Both the position numbers and the translations under genes were made by a program. A DNA stretch of 64,000 nucleotides from Membranipora membranacea (Eukaryota; Bryozoa; Gymnolaemata; Cheilostomatida; Membraniporidae), in assembly GCA_914767715.1 (NCBI GenBank), contig OU612066.1, positions 24,152,283-24,216,282 on the forward strand, in the 5' to 3' direction. A model generated the notes under the pieces. The model was given only the letters and a program-made list of their open reading frames with translations. It was not told where the DNA came from and searched no databases. Below, in pieces: positions 8,340-15,288 of the stretch. The first letter of the stretch is position 1. Every line of letters begins with the position of its first letter.

Positions 8340-11300
8340 ATGGAAAACGAAGCAGGCAATCAGATTGAGCAAACTCAAAGAAATCTGGAGCAACAACCTC
8401 TTCTGCCTCGAAACACAGACAATAGACCACCATCGACCAGATTATATTTGTGGTCAGTATCCAAATTTTATGAATGTGTGTAGCTTATGAATTTCTGATG
8501 ATTTACTGAAAATTGTCATGGTGCCGCTCTGCTCAAACAGACTTTGTGATATGGATATGAAGATCAAATCGACGATATTTATTACAGTTTTTCCTGCTCC
8601 TAATCTCCTGTTTATATGCTGTGAAATTATATTACAGCCATCTTTTGTTGATTCAGTTGTCTTCCTGGGAAAACAGGAAAGTATTCCTATCGTTTTGGAG
8701 TGAGTCCGGAAGACAACTCAACCATGTGCAACCAAATATTACAACTTACCCCCTGCCATTTGACTCACAAGAGCAAATATTTTACCATTCCTTGAGTCCT
8801 GAAACTTTTTTCAACCTTCAATCTTACCTAATGCTGATACAGATGTGCTATTATTTCGCAAAAAAATTGCTTCTCAAACATATTACGGACACCCTGCTAC
8901 TACCCGAGATGAAGAGCAATGCCTGAGGTAAAGTCTAAGTGTTCAGGCGGCTGCAATGCGAGTTAGTGGCACTCATAGTGTTAGATATAACTATATAGTG
9001 GCATTACACTATCCAGTTGAGTGTTTTATAATGTAATGTCACAGTGTAATGTAATCAAGTTCAGTGTTTGATAATGTAATGTCACAGTGTAATGTAATCA
9101 AGTTCAGTGTTTGATAATGTAATGCCACTAACTCGCATTGCAGCGGTCTGAGCACTTAGACTACCCGAGGTATCAAGCTGCATGACAATGGCTTGTAGGG
9201 TAGATTCAAATTTCGACTGTTCAATCTGCATCGCAGCATTATTGTTATGGCATGTCAACGAGTACTTTATAATTTATAATTTGCAGGATACCGATTGCCG
9301 AACTTATTAGTGGAGCCATATCCTTCAGCATTGGATCGATCTGGTCTTCCCACAATCTGTTTGATATGGAAACAGATGATATACCATTCTCACTTATAGG
9401 AGCTTATATTGGATCTTGCTATCTTCTCACAGGATGTATTGGAGTAGTGTCGGTGAAAAAGCAAACTATGCGATGGGTAAGTAACGAAGTGTCAAACACA
9501 ATTTTGTCCTCCCCTACGAATTCAACGCTTCAAGATTCAACGCTTCAACTTGTGTATCTACACCAGAGATGTGCGATTGACGGGATTTCCATCCGTCTGC
9601 CCGTGTCTGTTCATTTTTTGGACACAGTTGGACGGACAAATTTTTTTAATGGATGGGGAGAAAAATTCTGGAGGGGCAGTTTATTCGGGACGGATATGGA
9701 CGGACGGACGGATGGACGGACAAAACCTTTTGATGGAAAAATTGATAGAAAAATTCTGGACCGACGGTTTTTTGCTGGACGAGCTTGGGCGAACAGTAGT
9801 GATGGCAAATTGTCAGATTTTGGCGAGACAGGACGAGACCAAGACAGCAACAAAATTCGAGACCGAGACGAGACGGAAACATATATCAATGCCGATAAAA
9901 AGAAACTGATGTAGGATTATGATAACCCAACACCAACATTCATCAATATTTGTTGCCTAAAAGTTCTGTTGCATAACCAGACAGCTAGTATATTTGTCTG
10001 GTTGATTCGGAAATATGTATAATCAATTCAGGTTCAAGTTACTGTTCAATTTTGGACAGTTTTCAAAATATTATACATATTATATACTGCTGCAAGAGAA
10101 GATATGGTGTTGTTCTTTTTCTTAGCGAATTTCAAACCATTTAATAGTGTCAGTCGTCACAATAGAATAGATCACTCCAAGTGAAATTGAAACCTTTCCT
10201 CAAGATACTGGCACATACAATGTTATAATTTAATCTGATAACAGATAATTTTAGTGATGCACTGTATGGATGGTATTTTATTATCAGCAGTCAAAACAAT
10301 AAACAATTGCCAATAGTTGATGACATATGACTATAGATAATGAGGTTGAGCTTTTCCCACCACCCGTACCAACAAAGCTCGAATCCAAAAACAAAGCTCG
10401 AATAATGGAAGATGTAGAATCCCAGCTGGCCACCACTCCCTGTAGGAGGACAGCGATGTGATGGACATGCCAGTGGTTGCCTTTGTGTACAGGTCTAACA
10501 GGTCTCAGGTGCAAACTTTGATACAATAACTTAAAATCCTGTTTTCCCCATACTACAGAGCAACGCTTCATTACTGCTTATTCTTGTTTTTTTAGCTTCA
10601 AGGGTACATAGCACTGGAATCGATATGTCTAATTGCAGCCTTAGTGATAATCACTTTAGATGTACTGAATTACTTTCAAATTCCATTGGACGAGTTTACC
10701 TACCCAGCAACGGTAGGCCAACCCATTGGTCATGGGTTTCTGAACAGCAACCTCGCATTGATCTGATGCTACCAAATAAAAACCGATAGGCTTGTGATTT
10801 GTTGATATGATCCCAAATGAGGACAGAAATTTTTGATGTCATTTTAGTAGGTGGCGTAAAGGGAAAGTTGGTAATCTGGACAAACCATGCAGTGGAACAA
10901 AAGTCCCTTGTTATAGCAATAAAACAATTTGGGACACCTCTTTGTATGCCATATCTTGACATAACTTTGCAATACCGATTAAAGGTCAATATACCAAGAG
11001 CCCATACAGATACTGCAAAAGCAGGGAGACAGTAAGATTGATTATTCATTTTAGGTTATGTATTACAGGTGGAAGGAATGAACTCATTGGTGGAAGCCAT
11101 TGTGCTTACGACAATTACTACGGTAATAGGGATAGGACAGTTATGCTTGACCATTGCGTCTTGGTTTGCTACAGCAAGATTTTTAGCAGCAAAAGCCACA
11201 CATCCTTCCATCGACAGTCTGAATCAGGGTGAGAAACCAATGAATTATTATAATGCAATATAATAATATAATATATCTCTAGAGGCAGTAGCATGATGTA

Positions 11301-11513
11301 TATTATAATGATTGGTAAAGCCACTGATATAATATATTCATGGATTAGGGAAACCTAAATGACCCTGAACAAGCATATGGTGATTTACGTGTGGTTGCTG
11401 GAATGAATTTATCATCTTTGATTGGTCAACAATGCTGCAACGCAGCTGCTGCTCAACGCAGCTGCTGCTCAATGATGCTACAATGGATGTCTGGGATATC
11501 GTTCAATGCATAA
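8340..11513 (+). CDS. MS4A/CD20-like four-span membrane protein, copy 1
   Basis: Exons: 8340-8452, 9287-9476, 10596-10712, 11069-11228 and 11374-11513. All phases agree (2, 0, 0, 1) and give 239 residues. The N-terminal tail is acidic and Gln-rich (MENEAGNQIEQTQ) with a dileucine QQPLLPR. Four hydrophobic segments follow: IPIAELISGAISFSIGSIW; LIGAYIGSCYLLTGCIGVV, then the short basic loop SVKKQTMRW; GYIALESICLIAALVIITLD; and VLTTITTVIGIGQLCLTIAS. The order and the Gly-x-x-x-Val-x-Lys-Lys loop after segment 2 match the MS4A/CD20-like family. The last exon (AYGDLRVVAGMNLSSLIG) uses a weak acceptor. Its tail is shifted by one base against copy 2 and ends NAAAAQRSCC...SFNA. The fourth exon can also join the caspase-like exons downstream in phase. 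Confidence 0.72.
8931..9163. mobile_element. Palindromic-ended MITE with internal 43-bp tandem repeat
   Basis: The inverted ends (about 40 bp) contain TCTAAGTG.TCAG and GCAATGCGAGTTAGTGGCA. The flanks are near-identical nonamers, CCTGAGGTA (8922-8930) and CCCGAGGTA (9164-9172). Inside, a 43-bp unit (GTGTTTGATAATGTAATGTC...) is repeated about 2.3 times from 9021. The element is absent from the matching intron of copy 2. It shares its ends with the 77-bp element at 5021-5097. Confidence 0.75.
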
Positions 11514-11639
11514 CGTAAAAGCTGACTTTAATCTAGCTAGATCCAATTACTGAAAGTTACAAACTGATGTTATTTCTCAAAAAATAGCCATGCTCTGAGC
11601 TTACCACTAATCCATGAATTCATATAGGAAAGGAGTAGG

Positions 11640-13778: not shown

Positions 13779-13878
13779 TTAAACAGAACACTTGAACCAA
13801 CTAGGCATACATCTGTCATGACTCAGTTTTCTAGCTTTCCATATTAATGTGGGTTGATTTACCTTGTATACGATTTAG

Positions 13879-15288
13879 AGAAGTACACCATCGACTCTTC
13901 ACAGAATCAGTTTGCTTTCATCTTTTACAACACTCATCACCGTAATGGAGCAGAAGAAGAAGCTACCAACCTTCACAACGCCCTGAATGATGTTGGCTTC
14001 ACCTCAACACTCACAAAGTGGGAAGATACTGGATGCCTACCAACGTCATTAAATCAGAAAGTATCTGCAATTTCTAACACAGCTTCTTTGGTGATGGTGT
14101 GCATCATGGCTCATGGAAAATTTGGCAACCTCAGTGACAGTCAGGGAATCCAAATACCCCTAAACTACATCCTGTGTCAGTTATCACAAGTTATCCCGGA
14201 GGAGACACCATTGGTAAGCTTGACAAGTTTCGGTTGCTCTTTGCTGTTGCTCTTTGCTGTTGCTGTTGCTGTTGCTGTTGCTGTTGCTGTTGCTGTTGCT
14301 GTTGCTGTTGCTGTTGCTGTTGCTGTTGCTGTTGCTGTTGCTGTTGCTGTTGCTGTTGCTCTTTGATGTTGCTGTTGCTCTTTGATGTTGCTCTCTCATG
14401 ATTTTTCTTTTCAACATAATGTGACATGGAAGTGATATTAATACTGTGATTTGTATTGTATTCAGTCCCAAGCGAGTATTTTTATTGATTTTTATATATT
14501 GGATTTCTGTTGAAGGTGGTAGTTGTACAAGCCTGTCAGAATTTTGCCAATCTTCCGGTGTACTATGAGGAGAGTGCTGACATGGCTCAGCCTGCTACAG
14601 CAGATAATCATGTTCTCTTAGTCAGACAGCACACAGTTCTTCTAATGGCTACTGTAGCAGGTCAGTAATACAAACCCCTCTCCATAAACAATATTCGCCC
14701 TCTTGACAGAGAACCATGAATTAGGAGTTTTCTTCTCCCTTACATCAAATGTTAAGTTGAAAGGTGACATAGACTTAATATTAAGTCAATGGGTGATGTC
14801 CATAAACATATAAATATGTTCCCTCTGTGGTGGCGGAGGGATATTGCAAACATTTGCAGTATCCCTCCGCCACCACAGAGGGAACATACTTGTTCTAGTA
14901 TTTATCTGTTAATGGTGATGCCTTTCACTAACATGCTCGCTGTGTTTGAGTCTAGTGTTAACCAGTTCTATTCTGGCCAAACCACCTTTTTAAAAAAGTT
15001 TTATATTTCGAAAACTATAGTGTCAAGACTTATTCTTTGAACCAAGTTTTGACTTACGTGCAAAAAGGAAAACATATCTACTCTCTTCAATTTGAAGGCG
15101 GTACAGCTAAAAGAGGATTATACACAGGGGCCTTAGCTGCTGAGCTGAGGAAAGCCAACGGTAGAATTGGGATAAGAACAATGCACACTAATGCAGCCAT
15201 GGAACTACGAAGGTCTGGTCACCAGCAGGTTCCTGAGCTCAGAGATACTTTGATGAAACAGCTCATCTTACAACGTGGTGCTAACTGA
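13879..15288 (+). CDS. Caspase-like domain exons, copy 1 (probable C-terminal part of the MS4A-like gene)
   Basis: Exons: 13879-14213, 14516-14660 and 15098-15288. An alternative acceptor at 15046 would extend the last exon to 15047-15288. The first exon reads EKYTIDSSQNQFAFIFYN and then RNGAEEEATNLHNALNDVGF. It carries the caspase histidine in VMVCIMAHGKFGNLSDSQG and ends IPEETPL. The second starts VVVVQACQNF, holding the catalytic cysteine in QAC but with Gln-Asn where QACRG/QACQG is usual. The third gives the small-subunit-like AKRGLYTGALAAELRKANG and a final PELRDTLMKQLILQRGAN. The Ser-x-Arg substrate loop is not evident. The frame has no ATG before the first exon, so an upstream exon is required. 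The phase-1 entry matches the phase-1 exit of the exon at 11069-11228. The fused product would be about 416 residues. Confidence 0.7.
14255..14360. repeat. Hexanucleotide microsatellite (GTTGCT)n
   Basis: About 17 to 18 perfect units lie just inside the first intron of the caspase-like exons. Copy 2 has only a short, interrupted version at about 21373-21447. The run gives spurious Cys, Gln or Ser/Asn homopolymer frames, which I do not count as coding. Confidence 0.95.
14815..14888. mobile_element. Hairpin miniature element, caspase intron copy 1
   Basis: The arms are TATGTTCCCTCTGTGGTGGC and its exact inverse, continuing through GGAGGGATA / TATCCCTCC around a short loop ATTGCAAACATTTGCAG. 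The same element is in copy 2 (21877-21950). A longer-looped relative is at 33433-33545. Confidence 0.8.

Follow-up and report, generated by a model that had tools for sequence, protein, structure and literature searches.

Two tandem genes predicted to join a CD20-like four-span membrane part to a caspase in the bryozoan Membranipora membranacea

Death receptors such as Fas, TNFR1 and the TRAIL receptors span the membrane once. In the available part of one source they recruit caspases through death-domain adaptors (PMC8195603). The N-terminal partners of caspases named in the available part of another are CARD, DED, PYD or a short prodomain (PMC2779465), and coral caspase-X, in the portion of its description at hand, has two caspase domains and, in some predictions, a glycosyl-transferase domain (PMC4715348). 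Here we describe two tandem units, copy A and copy B, on the plus strand of a 64-kb stretch of Membranipora membranacea DNA (64,000 nucleotides of contig OU612066.1, assembly GCA_914767715.1, positions 24,152,283 to 24,216,282 of the forward strand; the whole stretch is called 'the window' below). Each unit is probably a single seven-exon gene, whose product would be a distantly CD20-like four-span protein with cytosolic ends and a caspase as its C-terminal tail, working as a ligand-triggered receptor-caspase.

The predicted protein resembles each of several known systems in part. Like animal caspases (C14; caspase-3, -8 and -9), it has a complete domain of large and small subunits with the catalytic His and Cys; unlike them, it has a four-span membrane domain as the partner at its N-terminus. 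With MS4A/CD20 proteins (PF04103) it shares four spans, inner ends and a weak but sequence-specific profile match; it differs from them in that the profile score is under the curated cut-off and a protease domain forms the C-terminal tail. To our knowledge, the described MS4A proteins have short tails without enzyme domains. The likeness to death receptors lies in the proposed logic, an outer ligand leading to inner caspase activation; unlike them, the protein has four spans and carries the caspase in the same chain, and no death-domain family was found among the Pfam matches. As with coral caspase-X, the architecture is a lineage-specific one, caspase-X being from a non-bilaterian animal; the membrane-spanning receptor part has no counterpart in what the available part of the caspase-X report describes. 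Among the matches listed from the open-licence literature, which leaves aside automatic animal protein predictions, neither an MS4A- or CD20-caspase fusion nor a membrane-spanning caspase was described. The novelty would be a caspase with a new N-terminal partner.

The fusion chain was rebuilt by joining the predicted exons of each copy. In copy A, the start codon and a putative cytosolic N-terminal tail (38 residues) lie in exon 1 (8340-8452), spans 1 and 2 with outer loop 1 in exon 2 (9287-9476), and span 3 with the first half of outer loop 2 in exon 3 (10596-10712). Exon 4 (11069-11228) holds the second half of that loop, span 4 and a cytosolic tail. After intron 4 (11229-13878), which consists largely of repeat elements, exon 5 (13879-14213) encodes the caspase large-subunit part with the catalytic His, exon 6 (14516-14660) the QACQN active-site Cys, the inter-subunit linker and the start of the small subunit, and exon 7 (15098-15288) the rest of the small subunit and the stop codon. 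The exons of copy B are at 17238-17350, 17662-17848, 19141-19251, 19627-19762, 21013-21347 (the first caspase exon), 21578-21722 and 22232-22422, the last one again ending with a stop codon. Joined, the seven exons form one open reading frame (ORF) of 416 amino acids in copy A and one of 405 in copy B, and the order in both proteins is four hydrophobic spans followed by a complete caspase domain.

Exons 2, 3 and 4 are 3, 6 and 24 nucleotides shorter in copy B than in copy A, all multiples of three, and the four other exons are equal in length. Introns differ freely (834, 1119, 356, 2650, 302 and 437 nucleotides in copy A; 311, 1292, 375, 1250, 230 and 509 in copy B). All six introns of both copies begin with GT and end with AG, and the intron phases in copy A are 2, 0, 0, 1, 0 and 1. 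The exon 1 donor, GTG/GTCAGT, is identical in the two copies, and the ratio of nonsynonymous to synonymous substitution rates (dN/dS) between them is 0.12 for this exon. A tblastn search of the window with the fusion and its parts (E up to 1) returned the two units plus one chance-level match (13349-13284, E = 0.95).

Exons 4 and 5 are predicted to be spliced together. The original prediction, made from the letters of the window, had exon 4 leaving in phase 1 and the first caspase exon entering in phase 1, with the pairing kept in both tandem copies. This proved to be the case: the donor reads CAGG/GTGAGA at 11228 in copy A and is conserved at 19762 in copy B, and the caspase exons open in phase 1 at 13879 and 21013. 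Retention of the pairing in both copies is weak evidence, because the unit was duplicated as a whole; the in-frame length differences, together with the pattern of selection given below, are stronger evidence.

If the caspase half were a gene of its own, it would have to begin somewhere. As predicted, its frame has no upstream ATG in either copy, running back 11 codons to a stop (TAA at 13845-13847 in copy A, TGA at 20979-20981 in copy B). Within the caspase domain no in-frame Met comes before residue 72 of 222, by which point much of the large subunit has been passed. A frame that lacks an early ATG and yet evolves like protein would therefore need an upstream exon with a start, barring a non-ATG start. 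Candidate first exons were defined as all ATG-opened stretches of intron 4 able to splice in frame to exon 5, and donors were scored with an approximate metazoan matrix. The claim that the interval between exons 4 and 5 is free of other candidate exons was too strong, since copy A has 55 ATG-to-GT candidates and copy B has 23; what holds is that none of the six aligned in both copies has a donor above 3.5, where the six real donors of each copy score 6.2 to 9.2, the exon 4 donor being the highest (9.2). Candidates of copy A that are not shared include donors of 5.7 (11380) and 5.5 (13104), and none in copy B reaches 5. Upstream of exon 1, the sequence common to both copies has eight shared ATG candidates, none with a donor of at least 5. 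One strong GT is kept in both copies (12636 and 20564), within a repeat element and not ATG-opened in frame; since a conserved GT is also present in intron 6 (14764 and 21826), such sites occur without being exons. Exons 4 and 5 may have a small cassette exon between them.

The length of intron 4 is due mainly to repeats. A segment at 12219-12960 (about 20158-20895 in copy B) carries inverted repeats, and fragments of it are found again at 38.3-39.5 kb and 45.7-46.8 kb. An inverted-repeat insert at 12972-13785 is specific to copy A and absent from copy B; it looks like a miniature transposon with TTAA target, its edges reading TTAA by eye and the uninterrupted site lying near 20910 in copy B. 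The non-repeat sequence common to both copies comes to about 255 nucleotides after exon 4 and about 95 before exon 5, some 350 in total, which is about the size of introns 3, 5 and 6. The copy-specific remainder is 735 nucleotides in copy A (11484-12218) and 142 in copy B (20016-20157). We read intron 4 as an ancestral short intron within one gene, to which some of the copy-specific sequence may also have belonged. The remainder in copy A also holds a tRNA-like stretch (11635-11720, GGTAGCTCAGTTGGTTAGAGCGCC), present once in the window and not called by transfer RNA (tRNA) or Rfam scans, which is probably a tRNA-derived short repeat.

Residues 209-409 of the fusion match Pfam Peptidase_C14 over profile positions 12 to 232/233 (E = 1.1e-11; copy B domain alone, 3.1e-13), with scores of 45.4 and 50.4 bits above a curated cut-off of 21.4. 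In an alignment with the solved insect caspase-1 (1m72), the His of AHG and the Cys of QACQ fall at the catalytic places (the pairwise E value, 0.075, is not significant alone), and both motifs are present in both copies. The Arg of HRNG aligns with SRTG, the first S1 arginine, and the second Arg (AKRG) lies beside a gap and is uncertain. In caspases, the His and Cys form the catalytic dyad and the arginines a basic S1 pocket for Asp at P1. Asp residues are kept in both copies at EESAD and PATAD in the linker and at YTID/SS just before the domain, and these may be the cleavage sites of self-processing. NCBIfam profiles gave chance-level matches alone (E = 0.25 and 0.12).

A fold predicted for exon 5 alone was modest (predicted local distance difference test score, pLDDT, 63.8; 60.9 with a three-row alignment). 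No match at E = 0.001 or better was found when the PDB was searched with this model. Four caspases (3r5j, 7xn6, 2y1l and 6px9; E = 0.037 to 0.20) were among the best 50 rows, of which the first three were unrelated proteins. The model agrees with a beta-alpha-beta-alpha-beta order, and no further weight is given to it.

The two caspase domains are 97% identical. Their exons differ by 12 synonymous and 7 nonsynonymous changes (152.7 and 516.3 sites; dN/dS 0.16; Fisher P = 1.6e-4), which fall 4, 3 and 12 times at codon positions 1, 2 and 3. The comparison indicates that the caspase exons are under purifying selection. A search of the protein collection with the caspase domain gave 295 candidates, of which a single protein (P0001, 137 amino acids on a 1246-base contig) had an E value of 0.01 or better; it is 74% identical to the first caspase exon over 117 residues. 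The similarity sets in precisely at the acceptor of exon 5 (E-[KR]-Y) and dies away shortly beyond the donor position, with YxIDSS kept, as when a genomic contig is read through. This supports the predicted exon 5 borders and the conservation of YxIDSS. In the viral_contigs and genome_contigs collections, where the caspase domain was the first query and an exon alignment of three rows the second, 5, 22, 29 and 64 stretches matched a pattern, none of which was confirmed.

In the membrane part, hydropathy gives four spans in both copies. Lysine and arginine are distributed unevenly, with two in the inner loop segment KQTMRWL and none (copy A) or one (copy B) in the outer loops; from hydropathy and these charges only, both protein ends would therefore be cytosolic. 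The best Pfam family is CD20 (PF04103), which scores 19.5 bits in copy A (E = 0.0011) and 17.6 bits in copy B (E = 0.004), under the cut-off of 27.9, the match lying around spans 2 and 3 in both. A score due to membrane composition by chance was rejected, as none of eight reversed or block-shuffled controls matched CD20. Tetraspanin (PF00335) was also set aside, its 13.2 and 10.8 bits (cut-off 32.1) falling below CD20. The name MS4A, used in the earlier label 'MS4A-like', is only suggestive, and we call this part CD20-like instead. The N-terminal tail of both copies contains EQQPLL, which we take to resemble a dileucine sorting signal.

The divergence between the copies is concentrated in the outer loops. 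Loop DNA stretches show 46 differences over 128 aligned sites, and intron stretches close by show 59 over 977 (P = 2.5e-19, not a strict value, since the loop borders were chosen after the divergence had been seen in the alignment). The intron set left out the poorly aligned intron 1 and the parts of introns 2 and 4 around insertions, except for stretches adjacent to exons. In one loop stretch of exon 2 of copy A (9337-9425), 29 of 86 aligned sites differ. For the 35 aligned loop codons, dN is 0.65 and dS 0.49, compared to 0.069 and 0.145 in the rest of the four-span part. Introns 3, 5 and 6 are 95 to 96% identical between copies, and intron 1 is 71% identical over 310 aligned sites. One caveat is that the stretch just before exon 2 is also raised (16 of 100). 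Coding sequence that changes faster than the adjacent introns, at two places that three exons encode and that are predicted to lie on one side of the membrane, points to diversifying selection on the outer loops, as far as two sequences can tell. A sensing role for the loops would fit the available part of a report in which mouse MS4A proteins are chemoreceptors, the same being suggested in immune cells (PMC11026480).

A number of observations weigh against the model as a whole. Phase agreement has a sizeable chance rate, so that taken alone it is modest evidence for the junction of exons 4 and 5. The exon 5 acceptor reads AGAGAAG, where the second or third AG could serve a phase-0 exon. One candidate start, found in copy A only, has a donor (11642) that scores 6.1, almost as high as the weakest of the real ones. 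An AATAAA is kept in both copies (12490 and 20409, paired by eye) inside the repeat, and could end a transcript limited to the four-span part. P0001 carries a Met in frame, four residues ahead of the exon border, and it is therefore no proof by itself that an upstream exon is needed there. In the protein collection, none of 5044 candidate homologues of the whole fusion scored, and no homologue of the four-span part was found among 118. The latter part is weakly constrained as a whole (dN/dS 0.78; with the loops removed, 14 synonymous and 22 nonsynonymous changes, P = 0.04). Synonymous change is raised in the loops too (8 of 23 sites compared to 26 of 259, P = 0.0026), and small conversions or misalignment may contribute to their divergence; conversion alone would need to have replaced those ends of exons 3 and 4 that encode the loop and left intron 3, between them, 95% identical. 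The pentapeptide is QACQN in both copies, without the last Gly of QACxG, a form that is typical of caspases rather than defining. Lastly, a fifth hydrophobic window just above 1.4 lies in the caspase core (residues 255-273 of copy A); as it ends at the catalytic His, it was taken as a core strand and not as a span.

Several of these points would be accounted for if two adjacent genes had been duplicated together: a four-span gene that stops within intron 4, and a caspase gene whose first exon, either short or far away, has escaped notice. The shared AATAAA, the possible phase-0 acceptors, the copy A candidate, the Met of P0001 and the early stop met by read-through of exon 4 in both copies all suit such an arrangement. 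We nevertheless think it unlikely, for the caspase frame has no ATG in either copy, the shared ATG exons have donors of at most 3.5 in intron 4 and below 5 upstream of exon 1, and only about 350 nucleotides of non-repeat intron 4 are shared. Possible variants are a first exon within sequence specific to one copy, translation from a codon other than ATG, or trans-splicing. One gene could also yield two products, the fusion and a plain four-span protein made through a retained intron, early polyadenylation or use of a terminal exon, which would be compatible with the seven-exon gene; we find this quite improbable. Reading on from exon 4, both copies meet an in-frame stop as the 12th intron codon, and both keep the AATAAA; a retained intron would give a tail ending GEKPMNYYNAI-stop in copy A and GEKPMNYYNVT-stop in copy B. 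The one terminal exon that could be placed by eye, at about 11350 in copy A and 19880 in copy B, would add three residues, two of which differ, behind a weak, pyrimidine-poor acceptor. The original prediction is partly supported: a four-span/caspase fusion is the best gene model, and the alternative 3' splicing proposed with it is neither supported nor refuted.

It may also be that the fusion is real and its caspase a non-lethal or inactive regulator, that is, a pseudo-protease or a local signalling protease. QACQN in place of QACxG and the uncertain second S1 arginine are consistent with this; the retained His, Cys and first S1 arginine and the purifying selection on the domain speak against it, and we consider the proposal rather doubtful. 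Decay of both units into pseudogenes after a recent duplication, which the repeat insertions in intron 4 and the microsatellite in intron 5 might suggest, is very improbable: 416 and 405 codons run without stop or frameshift, splice sites are intact, length differences come in threes and caspase dN/dS is 0.16. This last reading was rejected on account of the open frames and the selection. We conclude that, of the gene models considered, one in which the four-span part and the caspase are fused has the best support.

Other features were recorded in and around the two units. Intron 5 contains a TGCTGT microsatellite (14232-14366 in copy A, about 21380-21450 in copy B), longer in copy A. In intron 6 of both copies there is a long hairpin (14812-14891 and 21874-21953; inverted match 92.5%), which may be a small mobile element; ORFs near 33.3-33.7 kb translate similarly. 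Copy B is followed closely by a tRNA-Gly (TCC) gene (23248-23320). On the minus strand, repeated units across the window carry five ORFs that contain cysteines and resemble each other closely (2214-2678, 35679-36128, 42731-43180, 53985-54434 and 61206-61667); they recall, we presume, sponge and cnidarian proteins of the short-chain collagen C4-like kind, and the one tested had no Pfam match. Four plus-strand copies of a small cysteine-rich exon, CDEACERMG...CFGI...CHCNFC, are found at 187-645, 40711-40998, 51964-52248 and 57376-57765, and the copy tested has a weak match to DUF5637, below cut-off. Finally, a 134-residue ORF (25042-25443), with no Pfam match at E = 0.1, presumably recalls the C-terminal piece of the reverse transcriptase of a long interspersed nuclear element.

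If the fusion is expressed as predicted, its outer loops would bind an external or cell-surface ligand, and binding or clustering would bring the cytosolic caspase domains together. Proximity-induced dimerisation would then start self-processing in the inter-subunit linker, at the Asp of EESAD and PATAD, possibly with a further self-cleavage at YTID/SS just before the caspase domain. The freed protease could act in the cytosol, either to start cell death or for local proteolysis. Such a protein would be a death receptor with a built-in executor and no need of an adaptor. From the anatomy, which is all that the letters give, we infer ligand, clustering, cleavage and cell death. It is a more tentative suggestion that the product is a one-chain death receptor whose hypervariable loops, diversifying from one tandem copy to the other like those of immune or self-recognition receptors, sense microbes, chemicals or foreign tissue and engage the caspase without an adaptor layer.

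The usual caspases are soluble zymogens, which adaptor domains bring to receptors. If the model is true, a receptor with its own caspase would join extracellular sensing and execution in a single chain. The loop pattern provides a testable link to recognition, possibly in a group of animals where little is known of self/non-self receptors, and the simple design suggested is that of a ligand-gated caspase in one gene.

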